DNA of 64,000 bases. Origin: Polyangiaceae bacterium (GTDB lineage: Bacteria > Myxococcota_A > Polyangia > Polyangiales > Polyangiaceae). Positions 9,996-43,005 of this stretch are shown one piece after another (position 1 is the stretch's first letter; the number at the start of each line of letters is the position of its first letter). The DNA is taken from positions 657,501 to 721,500 of the forward strand of contig JAHBVX010000001.1 in assembly GCA_019637295.1 (NCBI GenBank). The letters run 5' to 3'. A program made the translations under genes and the position numbers. The notes beneath the pieces were generated by a model. That model was not told the DNA's origin and made no database searches. It was given only the letters and a program-made list of their open reading frames with translations.

Positions 9996-10130
9996 CTCGA
10001 GAGCTGTCGAATTACCGACAGCTCTTTCATTCTTTCACCGGGGAGGCACGCGCCTCCCCGCCCCGCCGAAGCGAATTCGTCGGGGCGGAGCCCCACGGCG
10101 CGAACTGGGTCGATTCCTGACAGCCCTTCA
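9996..10130 (-). repeat. Interspersed structured repeat, copy 1 (135 bp)
   Basis: This is the diverged copy of a three-member family. In the minus-strand sense it begins with the TGA stop of metF (10130-10128) and continues AGGGCTGTCAGGAATCGACC, then shows hairpins with arms at 10076-10085/10061-10070, 10052-10059/10040-10047 (identical to the other copies) and a terminal one at 10016-10025/10000-10009, ending in CTCGAG. Against copies 2 and 3 it lacks about 16 bp around the small GAA-loop hairpin. Base changes in the stems include one compensated pair. Confidence 0.9.
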
Positions 10131-10988
10131 GCGCAGGGCTTCCAGGATCTGCACCGTGGCGGGCGAGCGGTTGAGCGTATAGAAGTGGATGCCGGCGGCG
10201 CCCCCGTCGAGCAGCGCGCGGCACTGACGGATGGCGTGCTCCACACCGATCTGCTTGACCGTCTCGGCGTCGCCGTCACAGCTCTCGAGGCGATGCAAGA
10301 GCGCCTCCGGGATCCGTGCGCCGCACATCGCCGTGAAACGCTTGATTTGCTTGAGGTTCGTAACCGGCATGATGCCCGCGATGATCGGGCAGGTGATGCC
10401 GACGCCTCGCGCGCGCGCGACGAAGTCGAAGAAGTCGTGCTCGTCGAAGAAGAGCTGGCTGACCAAGAACTCCGCGCCCGCTTCGACCTTGCGCTTGAGG
10501 TTGGCGAGATCCGTCGCGGCGTCCGGCGCTTCAGGGTGCTTCTCGGGGTAGCAGGCGGCGGCGACGGTGAATCGGTAGCGCTCGTGGATGAACTGCACCA
10601 GCTCGCTGGCGTGGCTGAAGCCACCCTCGGTGACGACGAAGTGGTCCACGTTCTTGGGCGGATCCCCGCGCAGCGCCAGGACGTTGTCGATCCCCCCGTC
10701 GCGCAGCTGGTCGAGTACCTGAGCGATGTCCTCGCGGGTGGCGCCGACGCACGTCAGGTGCGCCATGCTCTCGATGCCCGTCTCGCGCTGGATGCGGCAC
10801 ACGAGATCGACGGTGAGCTTGCGCGTGCCGCCGCCCGCGCCGTAGGTCACGGAGACGAAAGTCGGCCGGTAGGGCTTCAGATGCGCGACCGTCTCGAACA
10901 GGGTGTCGCGACCCGCCTCGTCCCTGGGCGGGAAGAACTCGAACGAGAAGGAGGGCTCGGGGCTCGAGAGTTTGTCGACGATCTTCAT
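10128..10988 (-). CDS. metF: Methylenetetrahydrofolate reductase
   Basis: MetF reduces 5,10-methylene-THF to 5-methyl-THF with an FAD cofactor, supplying methyl groups for methionine synthesis. The 286-residue protein has the usual single-domain bacterial length and the family motifs FEFFPPRD (16-23, with the catalytic Glu17), TYGAGG (48-53), HLTC (77-80) and LRGDPP (106-111). The start at 10988 is chosen because these motifs begin right after it; the longer frame adds 40 low-complexity residues. Its TGA stop is the first codon of repeat copy 1. A core-MetE gene lies 31 kb away rather than beside it. Confidence 0.93.
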   Translation of the reverse strand: MKIVDKLSSPEPSFSFEFFPPRDEAGRDTLFETVAHLKPYRPTFVSVTYGAGGGTRKLTVDLVCRIQRETGIESMAHLTCVGATREDIAQVLDQLRDGGIDNVLALRGDPPKNVDHFVVTEGGFSHASELVQFIHERYRFTVAAACYPEKHPEAPDAATDLANLKRKVEAGAEFLVSQLFFDEHDFFDFVARARGVGITCPIIAGIMPVTNLKQIKRFTAMCGARIPEALLHRLESCDGDAETVKQIGVEHAIRQCRALLDGGAAGIHFYTLNRSPATVQILEALR

Positions 10989-11052
10989 GCCGTGGCTCGA
11001 AGGGGCGGACCGTAGCGCCGGCCCCTCGAAATGAAAAGGACTCGAGCGCCGT

Positions 11053-12576
11053 TCAGCCGAGGCCGCGCAGCGCCGGTGGGAGATGGGACAACTCGAGCCG
11101 GGGAGCACCCGCCAGCTCGCGCGCGGCTCGGACGCAGGCCTCGAGCTCAGGCAGATTCCCGGGCCAGGTGTGACGCGCGAGCGCTAGCGCCGCGGCGGCG
11201 TCCAGCGTGACGTCGCCGGCGGACTGTCGCCCGAGCACGCGCACCAACAAAGTCCCGAGGTCGGCCAAGCGGTGTCTGAGCGGTGGTAGCGAGCAACGAA
11301 ACCCACCGAAGCGCTGCAGCAACTCGGGTGCACCCTGAGCCGCGTAGCAGTGCGCGTAGGACGCGCGCGAGGTCGCCAGCACGCGCACCTCTGGCACAAC
11401 GAGGAGCAGCGCTGCGAGGCGGGCGCGGTGCTCCGGTAGTAGTTCGTCCACGGTCTCGAGGAGCAACGCTCCGCCGCGAGCGCGGGCGACCTCGCGCTCC
11501 AGTTCGACGACATCGGTGTCCGTGGCGCGCAGGACGACCAGCGGCCCAGGTCGACCCGAGATGCCGTGCAGTTCTCGGGCGAGCGCGGACTTGCCAACAC
11601 CGGCTTCACCCTCGATCCAGACGTCCTGAGCCGAGCCCGCGACGCGCAGCAAGTCCCGCTCCAGGGCGCGCAGTTCGGGCAGTACGCTCCCCAACAGCGA
11701 GGCCGGCTCCGCCCGCGCGTCGACCTCCGGGTCGAGCCCGGTGATCCGCTGGTGAGTACCCAGCGTGAGCAGGGTGTGCCCGACCTCGAGCACGTCTCCC
11801 ATGGCGAGGGCCTGTCGTCCCTGAACGCGTTTGCCGTCGAGCCAGGTGCCGTTGCTGGAGCCCAGATCCTCCACCGTCCAGCGCTCTCCGTCGAGCACCA
11901 GGCGTGCATGCCGGCGCGAGAGCGCGTCTCCGGGCAACGTGAGCAGCACCTGACCTGCCTTGCCGTCCGGGGCGTGCGTCACGCGACGCTCGGTGCCTCG
12001 TCCGATGTGAACCGCACGAACCCCGACCAGGCTCACCGCTGCGCCCAGATCCCGCGGCGCATCGGCGCGGAGGATGACGAAGAGATGCGGAAGCGTCGCG
12101 TTCATCGCGCCGCCGCGCGAGCTGTCCACGTCCGTGCTTGGTACCTCGCTCTCGGGCACTGGTATCGAGAACAGAGAGCCGAGCGCTGCGCGTGCCTGGG
12201 TCTGTCGCTCGGTGTCGAGCAGCGTCTCGGTGAGCGAGATGGACGCCACCGGCTCGGCCGCCGCGACGAAGCGGAACCCCTTGCCGCGCACCGTGCGCAG
12301 GACCGCCGGCTCTGTCGAGCTGTCACCGAGCGCGCGGCGCGCGGCGCTGACAGCCTGACTGAGGGATGCCTCGGACACGGCCACTCCGCTCCACAGCTCC
12401 CGCAGGAGCTCGTCCTTGGTGACCACCCGATCCCGATGGCGGGCCAAGTAGACGATCAGATCCAGCACTTTGGGCTGCACGGCGAGCGCAGCGCCGCCTC
12501 GGCGTAGCTCGAAGGTGCCCTCGTCGAGCTCGAACTCGCCGAACCGGAGCAGCAAAGGGCTCGGAATCTGGCTCAT
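11053..12576 (-). CDS. Winged-helix + FHA + AAA (sigma-54-activator-like) regulator
   Basis: The protein has 507 residues in three parts. Residues 8-106 are an OmpR/CadC-type winged helix ending in RTVRGKGFRF. Residues 185-275 are an FHA phosphothreonine-binding domain with GR (192-193), SRRH (220-223) and SNGTW (241-245). Residues 295-500 are an AAA module with Walker A GEAGVGKS (323-330), a degenerate Walker B near 370-378 and a final WPGNLPELEAC helix as in sigma-54 activators, but the GAFTGA loop that contacts sigma-54 is not visible. It probably responds to Ser/Thr kinase signalling. It is divergent from the secreted protease at 12745, a likely target. Confidence 0.8.
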   Translation of the reverse strand: MSQIPSPLLLRFGEFELDEGTFELRRGGAALAVQPKVLDLIVYLARHRDRVVTKDELLRELWSGVAVSEASLSQAVSAARRALGDSSTEPAVLRTVRGKGFRFVAAAEPVASISLTETLLDTERQTQARAALGSLFSIPVPESEVPSTDVDSSRGGAMNATLPHLFVILRADAPRDLGAAVSLVGVRAVHIGRGTERRVTHAPDGKAGQVLLTLPGDALSRRHARLVLDGERWTVEDLGSSNGTWLDGKRVQGRQALAMGDVLEVGHTLLTLGTHQRITGLDPEVDARAEPASLLGSVLPELRALERDLLRVAGSAQDVWIEGEAGVGKSALARELHGISGRPGPLVVLRATDTDVVELEREVARARGGALLLETVDELLPEHRARLAALLLVVPEVRVLATSRASYAHCYAAQGAPELLQRFGGFRCSLPPLRHRLADLGTLLVRVLGRQSAGDVTLDAAAALALARHTWPGNLPELEACVRAARELAGAPRLELSHLPPALRGLG

Positions 12577-16045: not shown

Positions 16046-16995
<950 letters not shown>

Positions 16996-17166: not shown

Positions 17167-18432
17167 ATGGACGTCTCCCCCGAACCCAGCTGGAGCGGGT
17201 CCCATCGGCCCCGTGAGTTCCTGTACTGGCGGAACCGCGACCGGCCCTGGGCGCGAGCCCTTCGCTCGGGCCTGCGAGCGCTGCTCGGCTTCGACCCCGC
17301 ACCCCCGGACGAGCTCGTGCGCACCCTCGCGGCCATGTACTACGACGCCGACCCCCTCGCGGAGGCGTTCGTCGACGAGGTGTACCTCGCGCAGAGCAGC
17401 GCGCGAGGCCGCGAGCTGCTCGACCGCGCGCTCGCGGTGGGCATCGACGCCATGGACGACGCGCCGGAGTCGCTTCGCCTCCTGTTCCGGGACATCGAGC
17501 GCGCGCCCGAGTGGCTCGACGCCGAGCAGGTCGAGCTCGGAGCGCGCGTGTTTCGTCGCTACGGCACGACGGTGTTCGACTTCGCCGGCGCCATCACCCT
17601 GGCGGGCTACTCCGAGTCCTCCGTGGCCAAACCGCTGGTGCTCAGCGGTGGCTACGTGGGCCAGTCCACCAAGCGCCGCTTCCTGGAGACGGCTGCCTTT
17701 TGGATTGCCGTATCGGAACCGGGCGGTCTGCTCCCGGGCGCGCCGGGTCGCGCGAGCGCGCTGCGGGTGCGCATCATGCACGTCTTCGTGCGTCGCCGGC
17801 TGCTCGCGCACCCCGAGTGGGATCTCGAGGCGTGGGGCGTACCGATCAGTCAGGCCGACGCACTGCTCACGTTGATGGGCGGCAGCTTCGCGCCGGGGGT
17901 GGCGCTCCATGCGCTCGGCTTCCGCACGAGCCGCCGAGAGATCGAGGCGTTGATGCACTACTGGCGCTACGTGGGGCATCTGATGGGCGTGCGCCCCCGT
18001 TGGTACCCCGAGACGCTGCGCGAGGCGGTGCAGCTCAGCTATGTCACCGCGGTGAAGGGCGCCGGGCGCGCGGGCGAAGACGGCCGCCGCCTGTGCCAGT
18101 CCTACGTCGCCGCGTTCGAGCCGGAGCCGACGCCCTCGCTGGCCGAGAAGGTGCGCCGGGTGCTCGAGCATCGACTGCACCGCGCCACGACGCGCTTGTT
18201 CCTGCCGCCGTGGCTCTACGCCAGAAATGGGCTCCCGCCGGCCGGGCTGTGGACGCTGTACCCGCTGCTCGTGTTCCCACCGCTGTTCGCCCTGGAGACC
18301 GCGCGCCGACGGAGCCCGCGACTGGAGGCGCTCGTCGACCGCGTCGCTCGCGCACAGCGCCGTCGTTGGCTCCTTCGTCACCTGGGCACGGAGCGCGCGG
18401 AGTATAGACCCTCCGAGAGACTCACGAGATGA
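17167..18432 (+). CDS. MpaB/Lcp-like oxygenase family protein (DUF2236)
   Basis: The protein has 421 residues and the layout of the MpaB/latex-clearing-protein family, haem proteins that include the rubber oxygenase Lcp. The key segment LRVRIMHVFVRRRL (199-212) matches the family pattern with the proximal haem ligand, here His205. An N-terminal WRNRDRPW and several Arg/His-rich helices are also typical. There is no signal peptide, unlike secreted rubber oxygenases, so an intracellular or membrane-associated oxidation of an unknown substrate is more likely. The TGA stop is the first codon of repeat copy 2. Confidence 0.75.
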   Translation: MDVSPEPSWSGSHRPREFLYWRNRDRPWARALRSGLRALLGFDPAPPDELVRTLAAMYYDADPLAEAFVDEVYLAQSSARGRELLDRALAVGIDAMDDAPESLRLLFRDIERAPEWLDAEQVELGARVFRRYGTTVFDFAGAITLAGYSESSVAKPLVLSGGYVGQSTKRRFLETAAFWIAVSEPGGLLPGAPGRASALRVRIMHVFVRRRLLAHPEWDLEAWGVPISQADALLTLMGGSFAPGVALHALGFRTSRREIEALMHYWRYVGHLMGVRPRWYPETLREAVQLSYVTAVKGAGRAGEDGRRLCQSYVAAFEPEPTPSLAEKVRRVLEHRLHRATTRLFLPPWLYARNGLPPAGLWTLYPLLVFPPLFALETARRRSPRLEALVDRVARAQRRRWLLRHLGTERAEYRPSERLTR

Positions 18433-18580
18433 AGGTCTGTCAAGAATTGACCCAGTTCATGCTGGCGAAGCCGGCCCGCGTGGGGTGGGGCCCCAACGAA
18501 TTCACTTCGTTGGGGCGGGGAGGCGCGTGCCTCCCCGGCGACAGAATGAAAGAGCTGTCGAATCTTCGACAGCTCTTGAG
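18430..18580 (+). repeat. Interspersed structured repeat, copy 2 (151 bp)
   Basis: It begins at the TGA stop of the MpaB-like gene (18430-18432), continues AGGTCTGTCAAGAATTGACC and ends in TTGAG. Five hairpins are visible: 18439-18451 (GTCAA/TTGAC, GAA loop), 18461-18475 (GCTGGC/GCCGGC, GAA loop), 18491-18515 (CCCCAACGAA/TTCGTTGGGG), 18517-18536 (GGGGAGGC/GCCTCCCC) and 18551-18576 (AGAGCTGTCGAA/TTCGACAGCTCT). It differs from copy 3 at three positions only. The next gene, on the same strand, starts 49 bp after it. Confidence 0.95.
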
Positions 18581-31720: not shown

Positions 31721-32500
31721 ATGCGTACCATGCGTGATTCACGGGGGAATCGGCCAGCGCGCGCGGGGTCCGTCGCGTGGGGTGGCGCGCGACCAGGAGC
31801 CGGGCGCAAGCGGTCCGGACCGCGCCCTCGCGTGCCCCACCTATCGCGCGCCACGTTTTCGTCCAATCGACCGCTGCACGTCACGCTACGAATGCGGGAC
31901 GACGTCCCTTCGCTGCGCCGCCGGGGCACGTTTTCCGTCGTGCATCGCGTGCTGACTGCGGCGAAAGAGCGCTTTGGCACGCGCATCTGCCACTACTCGG
32001 TGCAGAGCAATCACATCCACTTGATCATTGAGGCCCGCGGCAAACCATCGCTCGCGCGAGCGCTGCAGGGTTTCGGTATCCGTCTGGCCAAACGTCTCAA
32101 CGCGCGCCTTGGGCGCCGAGGCGCCGTACTGGCGGACCGCTACCACTCGCGTGCGCTCACCTCGCCGCGAGACGTGAGGACCGTTCTACGCTACGTGCTC
32201 GGCAACTTCCGGAAGCACGACGAGCGGGCACATCGCTTCGCGTTCTTGGACCCGTTTTCGTCGGCGCTCTGGTTCGACGGCCTCCGCGGCGCGCGTGGTG
32301 TCGAGCCGGCGTACGTGCTGCTCGCCAAGCCCGAGTGGGCGCCGCTCGGCCGTGCGGACCCTCGTCTCACCGGTCGCGGCCCGGAGGTCGCCGCGCCGCG
32401 CACGACATGGCTACGCAGCAGCTGGCGGCGTCATGGTCTCATCGGGCACGACGAGCGTCCGGCCACTCGCGTCACTCGCGCTTCACCCCGTCCGCGCTGA
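31721..32500 (+). CDS. REP-associated tyrosine transposase (RAYT, Y1_Tnp family)
   Basis: The protein has 259 residues. The N-terminus has GGARPGAGRKR, a basic motif common at the start of RAYTs. The Y1 transposase domain follows: RPLHVTLRMRDD, then the HUH motif HIH (98-100) in SNHIHLIIEA, and the catalytic tyrosine probably Tyr158 in RYVLGNFRKH. RAYTs cut single-stranded palindromes and are thought to spread REP-type repeats. The last 29 bp overlap the convergent TPR gene, so the C-terminal tail is built over existing sequence. No flanking palindrome pair was recognised next to it. Confidence 0.85.
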   Translation: MRTMRDSRGNRPARAGSVAWGGARPGAGRKRSGPRPRVPHLSRATFSSNRPLHVTLRMRDDVPSLRRRGTFSVVHRVLTAAKERFGTRICHYSVQSNHIHLIIEARGKPSLARALQGFGIRLAKRLNARLGRRGAVLADRYHSRALTSPRDVRTVLRYVLGNFRKHDERAHRFAFLDPFSSALWFDGLRGARGVEPAYVLLAKPEWAPLGRADPRLTGRGPEVAAPRTTWLRSSWRRHGLIGHDERPATRVTRASPRPR

Positions 32501-40875: not shown

Positions 40876-41724
40876 ATGTCGGTCAGCCACCGCCAGCTTG
40901 CCAGCCGCACCGCCCTGATGGTGGCGGCGTATCGCGGCGCTGCCAGCGCGCGACCCGATGCGATCTGTCACGATCCCCACGCCGCCGCGCTGGCGGGCGA
41001 GGAGGGGCGCGAGATCGCCGCTCGCTTCAGCTCGACCTTCCCGGCGATGGAGCTGTGGGTGGCGCTGCGCACGGCGTTTCTCGACGCGCAAGTCGAGCGG
41101 TGGCTGAGCCAGGGCTCGGTTCAGGTCGTGATCCTCGGCGCGGGCTTCGACACCCGGGCCGCCCGGCTGGCGCGAGAGGGCGTGCGCTTCTTCGAGGTCG
41201 ATCACCCCGCGACCCAAGCGGACAAGCGACAGCGCCTCGCGCGCATCAGCGACTATCCCGCCACCGCAGCCCACTACGCGCCTTGCGACTTCGAGCGGGA
41301 CGAGCTCGTCGAATGCTTGCGGCAGAGCGGCTTCTCTACCGACCAGCCGGCGGTCGTACTCTGGGAGGGTGTGGTGCCGTATCTCACCGAGGTCGCGGTC
41401 CGAAAGACGCTGCACACCGTCGCGCACGAGCTGCACCCGCGCTCGGTGATCGCGTTCGACTACTTGATGAAGACCATGGTCGAGAGCCAGCGCTTGTCCG
41501 AGAGCGACGCGCGCACTCGCGCGCAGGTGGAAGAGCTCGGCGAGCCGCTGCGCTTCGGCACCAATCACCCGCTGCCCCTGCTCCACGAGGAGGGCTTCGG
41601 CCGCGTGCGCACGATCTCCTTCGACGAGATCGCGCTCGACTTTGGTGCGGGCTACGATCGCGCTCGTCAGTTTCGCTTCCAGCACGTCGCGCTGGCCAGC
41701 CGCGAAGCGGCGGTCATCGTCTGA
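40876..41724 (+). CDS. SAM-dependent methyltransferase, PPM/leucine carboxyl type
   Basis: The protein has 282 residues and the pattern of the TIGR00027/PPM methyltransferases: an N-terminal helical cap (TALMVAAYRGAAS), the SAM loop ILGAGFDTR (86-94), EVDHP for ribose binding, and WEGVVPYLTE near the substrate pocket. Such enzymes methylate carboxyl or hydroxyl groups of natural products or proteins; the target here is unknown. The ATG at 40876 is chosen over a 66-bp longer frame. Its TGA stop is the first codon of repeat copy 3. Confidence 0.85.
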   Translation: MSVSHRQLASRTALMVAAYRGAASARPDAICHDPHAAALAGEEGREIAARFSSTFPAMELWVALRTAFLDAQVERWLSQGSVQVVILGAGFDTRAARLAREGVRFFEVDHPATQADKRQRLARISDYPATAAHYAPCDFERDELVECLRQSGFSTDQPAVVLWEGVVPYLTEVAVRKTLHTVAHELHPRSVIAFDYLMKTMVESQRLSESDARTRAQVEELGEPLRFGTNHPLPLLHEEGFGRVRTISFDEIALDFGAGYDRARQFRFQHVALASREAAVIV

Positions 41725-41872
41725 AGGTCTGTCAAGAATTGACCCAGTTCATGCCGGCGAAGCCGGCCCGCGTGGGGTGGGGCCCCAACGAATTCACTTC
41801 GTTGGGGCGGGGAGGCGCGTGCCTCCCCGGCGACAGAATGAAAGAGCTGTCGATTCTTCGACAGCTCTCGAG
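41722..41872 (+). repeat. Interspersed structured repeat, copy 3 (151 bp)
   Basis: It begins at the TGA stop of the PPM methyltransferase gene (41722-41724) and ends CTCGAG, eight bases before the stop of the convergent MetE-like gene at 41881. It is identical to copy 2 except at three positions: one turns a G-U into a G-C pair in the small GAA hairpin (GCCGGC at 41753-41758), one is in the loop of the terminal hairpin (41843-41868), and one is in the last bases. It has no indels against copy 2. Confidence 0.95.
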
Positions 41873-41880
41873 GGAGCCCG

Positions 41881-43005
41881 CTACGGCGGGTCGCCGGCCC
41901 CTGCGGACGCCCCGAGCAGCTCGCGGCGCACGATGCTGGCGCCCTTCACCAGGGCAGCGAGCTTCTGGGCGGCGACGAAGCGGGGGAGCTGCTTCATGCC
42001 GCAGTCGGTGGTGACGGTCACTCGCTCGGCCGGCACGAAGGCCAGCACCTTGCGGATGCGCTCGGCCACCTGCTCGGGCTCCTCGATCTCGAGGGTGCGC
42101 ACGTCGATCACGCCGACGGCCACCTCCTTGTCCTTGGGCAGGTCCTTCAAGATGAAGGCGTCCTGCATCTCGCGGCACGCGAAGTCGAGCACGTACTGCC
42201 TGACGTTCACGTCGTAGTAGCGGTGAAGGATGTCGCCGTAGCCGGCGCGAGTCATGCCCTGCATGCGATTGCCCCAGGCGTTGCCAAGGCAAAAGTGCCA
42301 CGAGGTGTGCGCGCTCTCGGTGCCCGCCAGGGTGGCGTTCACGGTGCGGGCGACCCAGTCGAAGTCTTTCTCTCCGCTGAGGGTCGGGATCCACGCGCCG
42401 AGGTCCTCGAGCTGAATGTAGCTACAGCCTGCCTCGATCAGCGAGCGGATCTCGGCGTTGAAGATCTCCGCGAGCGCGGCGCTCAGCTGGTAGCGATCCT
42501 GGACTGGGCCGTCCACGAACACGGTGAGGGTAGAGAGCTGCACCGGACCGGCGCCGACACAGGCCTTGATGGGCCGCTTGGTGCGACTCTGGGCGATCGC
42601 GAACAGCTCCGCCATGCGGATGGGGCCGCCCCGGGGCTCCGCGTGCAGACCCACGCCGCCGGCCTCGTCGAGCGCCCACTCGTCGCGACCCTGAGCCTTC
42701 TTCCGCGCAGGATGCACGAGCTTCTCCTTGCCGAAGCCGTGGATGCGCTCGAGCCAGTACCAGAGGAAGGAGCCAATGCCCATCGAGTAGTCGTCGAACC
42801 ACATCTGACCGTCAGCCAGGATGTCGAGCCCTGCGCGCTCCTGGTCTGCGATGACGGCGCCGACGGCGTCCTCGAACGCCTCCTTGTGGTGGATGACCTT
42901 GAAGGCCTCGAGGATGTCGCGACCCTCGAGCTGGTGGCGAAACCAGCCGGGGCGCGGATAGGACCCGACCATCGTGGTGGGCAAGAGCGGTCTGTCCATG
43001 GGCAT
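41881..43005 (-). CDS. Core-MetE type cobalamin-independent methionine synthase-like protein
   Basis: The protein has 374 residues and corresponds only to the C-terminal catalytic barrel of MetE (full MetE is about 750). The zinc ligands are present: His237-x-Cys239 in SWHFCLGN and Cys335 in TTDCGMKQ. A MVGSYPRPGWF start and GGG-like turns fit homocysteine-binding barrels. Short core-MetE proteins in other bacteria take the methyl group from donors other than folate. A VOC protein gene lies directly upstream with six bases between. metF is 31 kb away. Confidence 0.8.
   Translation of the reverse strand: MPMDRPLLPTTMVGSYPRPGWFRHQLEGRDILEAFKVIHHKEAFEDAVGAVIADQERAGLDILADGQMWFDDYSMGIGSFLWYWLERIHGFGKEKLVHPARKKAQGRDEWALDEAGGVGLHAEPRGGPIRMAELFAIAQSRTKRPIKACVGAGPVQLSTLTVFVDGPVQDRYQLSAALAEIFNAEIRSLIEAGCSYIQLEDLGAWIPTLSGEKDFDWVARTVNATLAGTESAHTSWHFCLGNAWGNRMQGMTRAGYGDILHRYYDVNVRQYVLDFACREMQDAFILKDLPKDKEVAVGVIDVRTLEIEEPEQVAERIRKVLAFVPAERVTVTTDCGMKQLPRFVAAQKLAALVKGASIVRRELLGASAGAGDPP

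Follow-up and report, generated by a model that had tools for sequence, protein, structure and literature searches.

The window, the whole 64,000-nucleotide stretch of Polyangiaceae DNA analysed here, contains three copies of an element of about 151 nt, identified by BLAST of the stretch against itself (Table 1). All three start on a stop codon, and the TAG stop of a convergent Meth_synt_2 gene lies 8 bp from the right end of copy 3. Two of the three adjoin methionine-pathway genes (metF and Meth_synt_2), which may be chance. The left end of copy 2, CTGAAG..CTGTC, is an imperfect inverted repeat of its right end, as seen in the sequence, the alignment and the DNA fold. Plasmid and phage collections gave no match to the element. 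A search of Rfam 15 gave no window match at the gathering threshold, and six related loci were likewise without a match at E <= 0.1; the best match at the element, RcsR1, scored 27.2 bits against a threshold of 60.

Table 1. Copies of the element in the window, their parts and the neighbouring genes
Feature	Position	Strand	Basis and remarks
Element copy 1, subfamily B	9996-10130	-	Self-BLAST; 76% identity to copy 2, 16-nt deletion over hp1
TGA of copy 1, stop of metF (MTHFR)	10130-10128	-	ORF analysis
metF gene	10128-11108	-	Adjoins copy 1
MPAB_Lcp_cat gene (MpaB-type oxygenase) upstream of copy 2	17167-18432		ORF analysis, Pfam PF09995
Element copy 2, subfamily A, whole	18430-18580	+	Self-BLAST; 47-copy alignment, sharp ends
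Left-end TGA of copy 2, in-frame stop of the upstream MPAB_Lcp_cat gene	18430-18432	+	ORF analysis, Pfam PF09995
Left hairpin GTCAA-GAA-TTGAC	18439-18451	+	Sequence, alignment, DNA fold
hp1, GCTGGC-GAA-GCCGGC	18461-18475	+	Sequence; triloop GAA or GGA
Conserved G-tract CGTGGGGTGGGG, 5' of hp2	18479-18490	+	Alignment, spacer census
hp2, CCCCAACGAA-TTCAC-TTCGTTGGGG	18491-18515	+	Covariation analyses; strong covariation
hp3, GGGGAGGC-GCGT-GCCTCCCC	18517-18536	+	Covaries between genera; identical in all window copies
Right terminal hairpin, AAGAGCTGTCGA-ATCT-TCGACAGCTCTT	18550-18577	+	Loop hypervariable among otherwise near-identical copies
Y1 transposase gene	~31730-32500	+	Y1_Tnp match at 31916-32197
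Element copy 3, subfamily A	41722-41872	+	Self-BLAST; 98% identity to copy 2
TGA of copy 3, stop of a leucine-carboxyl-methyltransferase-family gene	41722-41724	+	ORF analysis
Meth_synt_2 gene, convergent to copy 3	41881-43005	-	Stop codon TAG

Copy 2 folds far more stably than shuffled sequences, with z-scores of -8.8 for RNA, -8.2 for DNA and -6.5 for minus-strand RNA and none of 200 shuffles as stable in any of the three. A long-range helix in the RNA fold (UCUGUC/GACAGA) was dropped because it is not kept in subfamily B, which has GGCTGTC versus GGTGAAAG. Between positions 17900 and 19100, no U-tract terminator or terminator-like site is present on either strand, and no sigma-70-type promoter was found.

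An earlier note on this DNA had proposed that stem-preserving differences among the three copies support a folded RNA or single-stranded DNA form. In hp2, copy 1 does replace an A-T by a G-C pair on both arms, reading CCCCGACGAA/TTCGGCGGGG, with the single A.G mismatch that the note named as an exception at the neighbouring pair. Likewise, the T18463-G18473 pair that copy 2 has in the GAA-loop hairpin (hp1) is replaced by C-G in copy 3, and hp3 has the same letters in all three copies, as claimed. The terminal hairpin, described as varying in its loop alone, also differs at its outermost pair (A18550-T18577), where copy 3 has C for T, and copy 1 proves to lack hp1 entirely. The three window copies nevertheless prove little, because the copy-1 marks are subfamily-wide: the hp2 changes are common to subfamily B (25 of 47 copies in the genome) and the A.G mismatch occurs in 24 copies, so that together they amount to a single compensated change and a single uncompensated one. 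It is the other genera that carry the weight, and genome-wide copy number, stop-codon anchoring and lineage-specific ends are beyond what the note could see.

The genome that contains the window (G000, 7.65 Mb) carries at least 47 copies with both ends and about 50 in all, according to a genome search. Aligned, the 47 two-ended copies form subfamily A (n = 22) and subfamily B (n = 25), with near-identical copies within each. Their terminal inverted repeats are imperfect (CTGAAGG.CTGTC versus CTCAAGAGCTGTC), and the right end is also palindromic on its own. The terminal motif GACAGCTCTNGA has 65 matches in this genome versus one for the reversed control; these are mainly element copies, mini hairpins or element-free sites, with neighbours annotated for part of them. 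Mini forms at C19:417691 (L118) and C24:73855 (L125) contain nothing but end hairpins, either one or two, at whose foot the left TGA stands. In subfamily A, the stems are nearly invariant while the tip loop of the terminal hairpin is hypervariable, three of its columns holding 24 of the 69 minority letters (8 per column versus 0.30 elsewhere).

The copies are anchored to stop codons. For 43 of the 47, the left-end TGA serves as an in-frame stop with GC3 support, versus 14 of 516 other TGAs at the same loci, in a test that required an open frame of 75 codons or more and took gene ends from ORF and GC3 calls, not from annotation; four copies failed it. The left-end search pattern requires TGA, so stop type in this genome is partly a selection effect, whereas the reading frame is not. 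C precedes this TGA in 43 of 47 copies, compared with 89 of 168 TGA stops in the background. At the right end, 26 of the 47 copies have a convergent stop no more than 18 bp away. Many G000 copies have TGA on both sides, but the left and right stops differ in copies L249 and L252.

Anchoring is also seen in other genera, among copies of which some have no callable neighbouring gene: on TAG in G022/G094, on TGA in G051/G004, on TAA, TGA or TAG in G081/G076/G079, and on TAG or TAA in G071. In one genus, represented by G081/G076/G079, the right hairpin arms match the stop of the convergent gene, as CTGAATG..CATTCAG, CTAAATG..CATTTAG or CTAGATG..CATCTAG. The junction between pyrE and purE, named from translated sequence and a tblastx match, shows gain or loss of the element with pyrE length unchanged: in G094 the element starts at the pyrE stop, and in G091 it is absent and pyrE ends at the matching codon. 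For the gene to the left of copy C12_1009109, the alignment with many relatives extends as far as the stop codon, so it was not truncated by the element. Insertion that truncates genes was rejected on these two grounds. The flanks of copy C12_635914 lie on one contig of the same-genus genome G001, 861 bp apart, and are not usable as a strict empty site.

Shorter relatives of the element were found by BLAST in five other Polyangiaceae genera. A covariance model of the core (R1, 70 nt, comprising hp2 and hp3) detects it in 31 of 108 Polyangiaceae genomes, representing 18 of 48 genera, and, in a phylum sample of 379, in four genomes outside the family (G226, G436, G130 and G206). Neither BLAST nor the core model found the element in G001. 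An exact core pattern searched in 84,980 species returned 33 stretches. All come from records titled Polyangiaceae, Labilithrix or Myxococcales, except for those of a single 'Proteobacteria' MAG, which has contigs agreeing with G022 contigs in length and position. In G071, contigs start or stop at the repeat, as is usual for recent identical copies. The core is common to the genera, with hairpin positions, hairpin lengths and many loop letters (TTCAC, GCGT) conserved across them and in a few other families. The end hairpins differ wholly between genera yet are palindromic in each, and left ends read CTGAAG in G000, CTAGAG in G022/G094 and TAGCAGG in G005/G071. Five loci in G022 and G071 (L220, L222, L232, L289 and L293) have copies or end hairpins arranged in tandem, and some of these share a terminal CTAG.

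Comparison between genera also provides the covariation signal, whose absence from a larger alignment the earlier note had named as grounds for giving up its proposal. In a set of 12 hand-picked sequences from five genera, 8 of 18 pairs change on both sides, with a score of 0.269 versus 0.099 for shuffles and at most 0.071 for slid controls; one loop or spacer base was cut from the G004 and G005 rows, leaving the stems unaffected. A larger set of 94 matches (87 distinct sequences) was fitted to model R1 and leans towards that model; here both-sided change occurs in 16 of 18 core pairs (194 both-sided cells), 96.7% of core cells pair, and the score of 0.375 (shuffles 0.125, slid controls at most 0.079) is higher than that of any of the 500 shuffles or any slid control. 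The fold is thus real and maintained by paired changes.

The folded form proposed earlier stands to that extent, whereas RNA specifically is not demonstrated: both strands fold, and stem mismatches are about equally G.T (21) and A.C (18), which gives no indication that selection acts on a single transcript strand. A function as RNA is plausible without being proven, and the data would equally suit a DNA palindrome or template-switch repair. The heptamer GCGAAGC of hp1, also found as GCGGAGC, recurs in hp1 of many relatives. DNA of the form d(GCGNAGC) makes a very stable mini-hairpin, and these heptamers would fit a single-stranded DNA form. The pattern GGGG-N-GGGG stands on both sides of hp2 (18481-18490 and 18512-18520), and the single-base spacers of the two tracts are linked (the combinations are T/C in 36 sequences, A/A in 18 and T/A in one). 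Such paired tracts possibly reflect a G-quadruplex or direct-repeat homogenisation.

We consider copy 2 to be, on balance and with some reserve, one copy of a dispersed, non-coding, structured Polyangiaceae repeat of about 150 bp, which is REP- or MITE-like, mobile but non-autonomous, and situated at gene 3' ends. A conserved hairpin core (hp2 and hp3, with hp1 and the G-tract) is flanked by lineage-specific terminal palindromes. The element would settle with its end exactly on a gene stop, in G000 mostly the CTGA of the gene end, and it often fills the gap between convergent genes from stop to stop. It may thereby form the 3' end of one transcript or of both, where it probably acts as a hairpin that ends or protects the mRNA. 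Copy number, ends, stop anchoring, conservation of the fold and presence or absence at an orthologous junction are direct observations; transposition as the mode of spread, like any 3'-end function, is what we infer from them. Several observations weigh against this reading. No transposase is linked to the element, the lone Y1 transposase gene having no element beside it. No target-site duplication was shown, the left and right stops differing in L249 and L252, and tolerance of TGA, TAA and TAG would be odd for a sequence-specific transposase. The missing U-tract and the four copies that failed the stop-codon test also count against it.

Several known repeat families share features with the element. 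Inverted REP pairs constitute a mobile unit (PMC3116915), and many REP elements are found no more than 20 bp from the 3' ends of convergent ORFs (PMC3733652). Like REPs, BIMEs and REPINs, the element is short, palindromic, dispersed, intergenic, present in many copies and close to convergent gene ends. Unlike these GTAG/CGTC-tagged, RAYT-associated repeats, it has no tag at its foot, and a Y1 transposase was not found in most carriers tested; its core is structured and conserved across genera, and its ends start on the stop codon itself. What is new relative to known REPs near convergent 3' ends is the exact stop anchoring, the cross-genus core and the exchangeable ends. Bacterial MITEs are small, non-coding and multi-copy, with terminal inverted repeats and folded transcripts (reviewed in PMC10969869), and the element resembles Correia, ERIC, RUP, BOX and SPRITE in size, lack of coding capacity, copy number and terminal inverted repeats. 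In contrast to MITEs, no partner insertion sequence or target-site duplication was found for it, and its terminal repeats are exchanged between lineages around a core that persists.

Alternatively, the element may be a domesticated 3'-end RNA domain, either a bidirectional terminator or an mRNA-protecting structure under selection, spread mainly by duplication and gene conversion and not by transposition. We regard this as possible but rather unlikely. Exact stop-to-stop placement between convergent genes and a fold kept across genera argue for it, as does the fit of the right hairpin arms to the convergent gene's own stop in G081/G076/G079; on the minus strand, moreover, a pyrimidine-rich tract (TTCATTCTGTC) comes after the right hairpin. 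Bidirectional intrinsic terminators likewise place hairpins between the stops of convergent genes, and at least one report describes compensatory evolution of terminator stems (PMC5381666). The element differs from them, however, in having several hairpins, no classical U-tract and dispersed near-identical copies, and such copies at unrelated loci call for active spread. G.T mismatches do not exceed A.C, and the element is absent from G001 and most family members and is therefore not essential.

More speculatively, the element might dock at stop codons: a structured core with exchangeable terminal palindromes would insert at, or be kept only at, TGA, TAA or TAG, with an end hairpin matched to the codon, and so capture the 3' end of one gene, or of two genes simultaneously. 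If this tentative idea is true, it would be a mobile element targeted by translation or transcript ends and not by a fixed DNA word.

It is doubtful that the paired changes arose by replication template switching, that is, by quasi-palindrome correction in a selfish DNA palindrome, which would make them uninformative about RNA folding. Template switching in DNA replication can create, fix and maintain perfect stems (PMC8794818). The hypervariable tip loop on a nearly invariant stem in subfamily A, loop expansions in hp2 of G022 and mismatches without strand bias are consistent with such a process. Mutation alone, however, would not keep the core hairpin positions and lengths and the loop letters TTCAC and GCGT across genera, and some both-sided changes are single isolated pairs. 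As a caution, covariation in dispersed palindromes need not imply RNA.

The Y1 transposase gene in the window holds the only Y1_Tnp match in G000. It matches the model of REP-associated tyrosine transposases (NF047646) at 3.4e-9 and 36.7 bits, below the cut-off of 80, and may represent a weak RAYT relative by protein similarity. That the element is a REPIN mobilised by this transposase is very improbable: despite that resemblance and the REP-like size, palindromic ends and 3'-end placement (PMC3116915, PMC3733652), the gene lacks flanking copies of the element, no Y1_Tnp match was found in seven other carriers (G022, G071, which is 99% complete, G094, G004, G051, G005 and G002), and the left ends of G000, G022/G094 and G005/G071 lack a GTAG or CGTC tag at the foot of the hairpin.

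The element gives a clear and testable family of structured repeats at 3' ends in Myxococcota, one that Rfam does not contain. Stop-to-stop placement and stop-matched hairpins raise the question of how the repeat finds stop codons, and the further question of whether mobile repeats supply bacterial mRNA 3' ends. Elsewhere in the window, positions 16738-16905 hold short tandem repeats (tcgcgtcgctcttgcccgacgcct, followed by a tcg run), which on the minus strand lie inside a 317-aa frame as KSDAKASG repeats and an Asp run.
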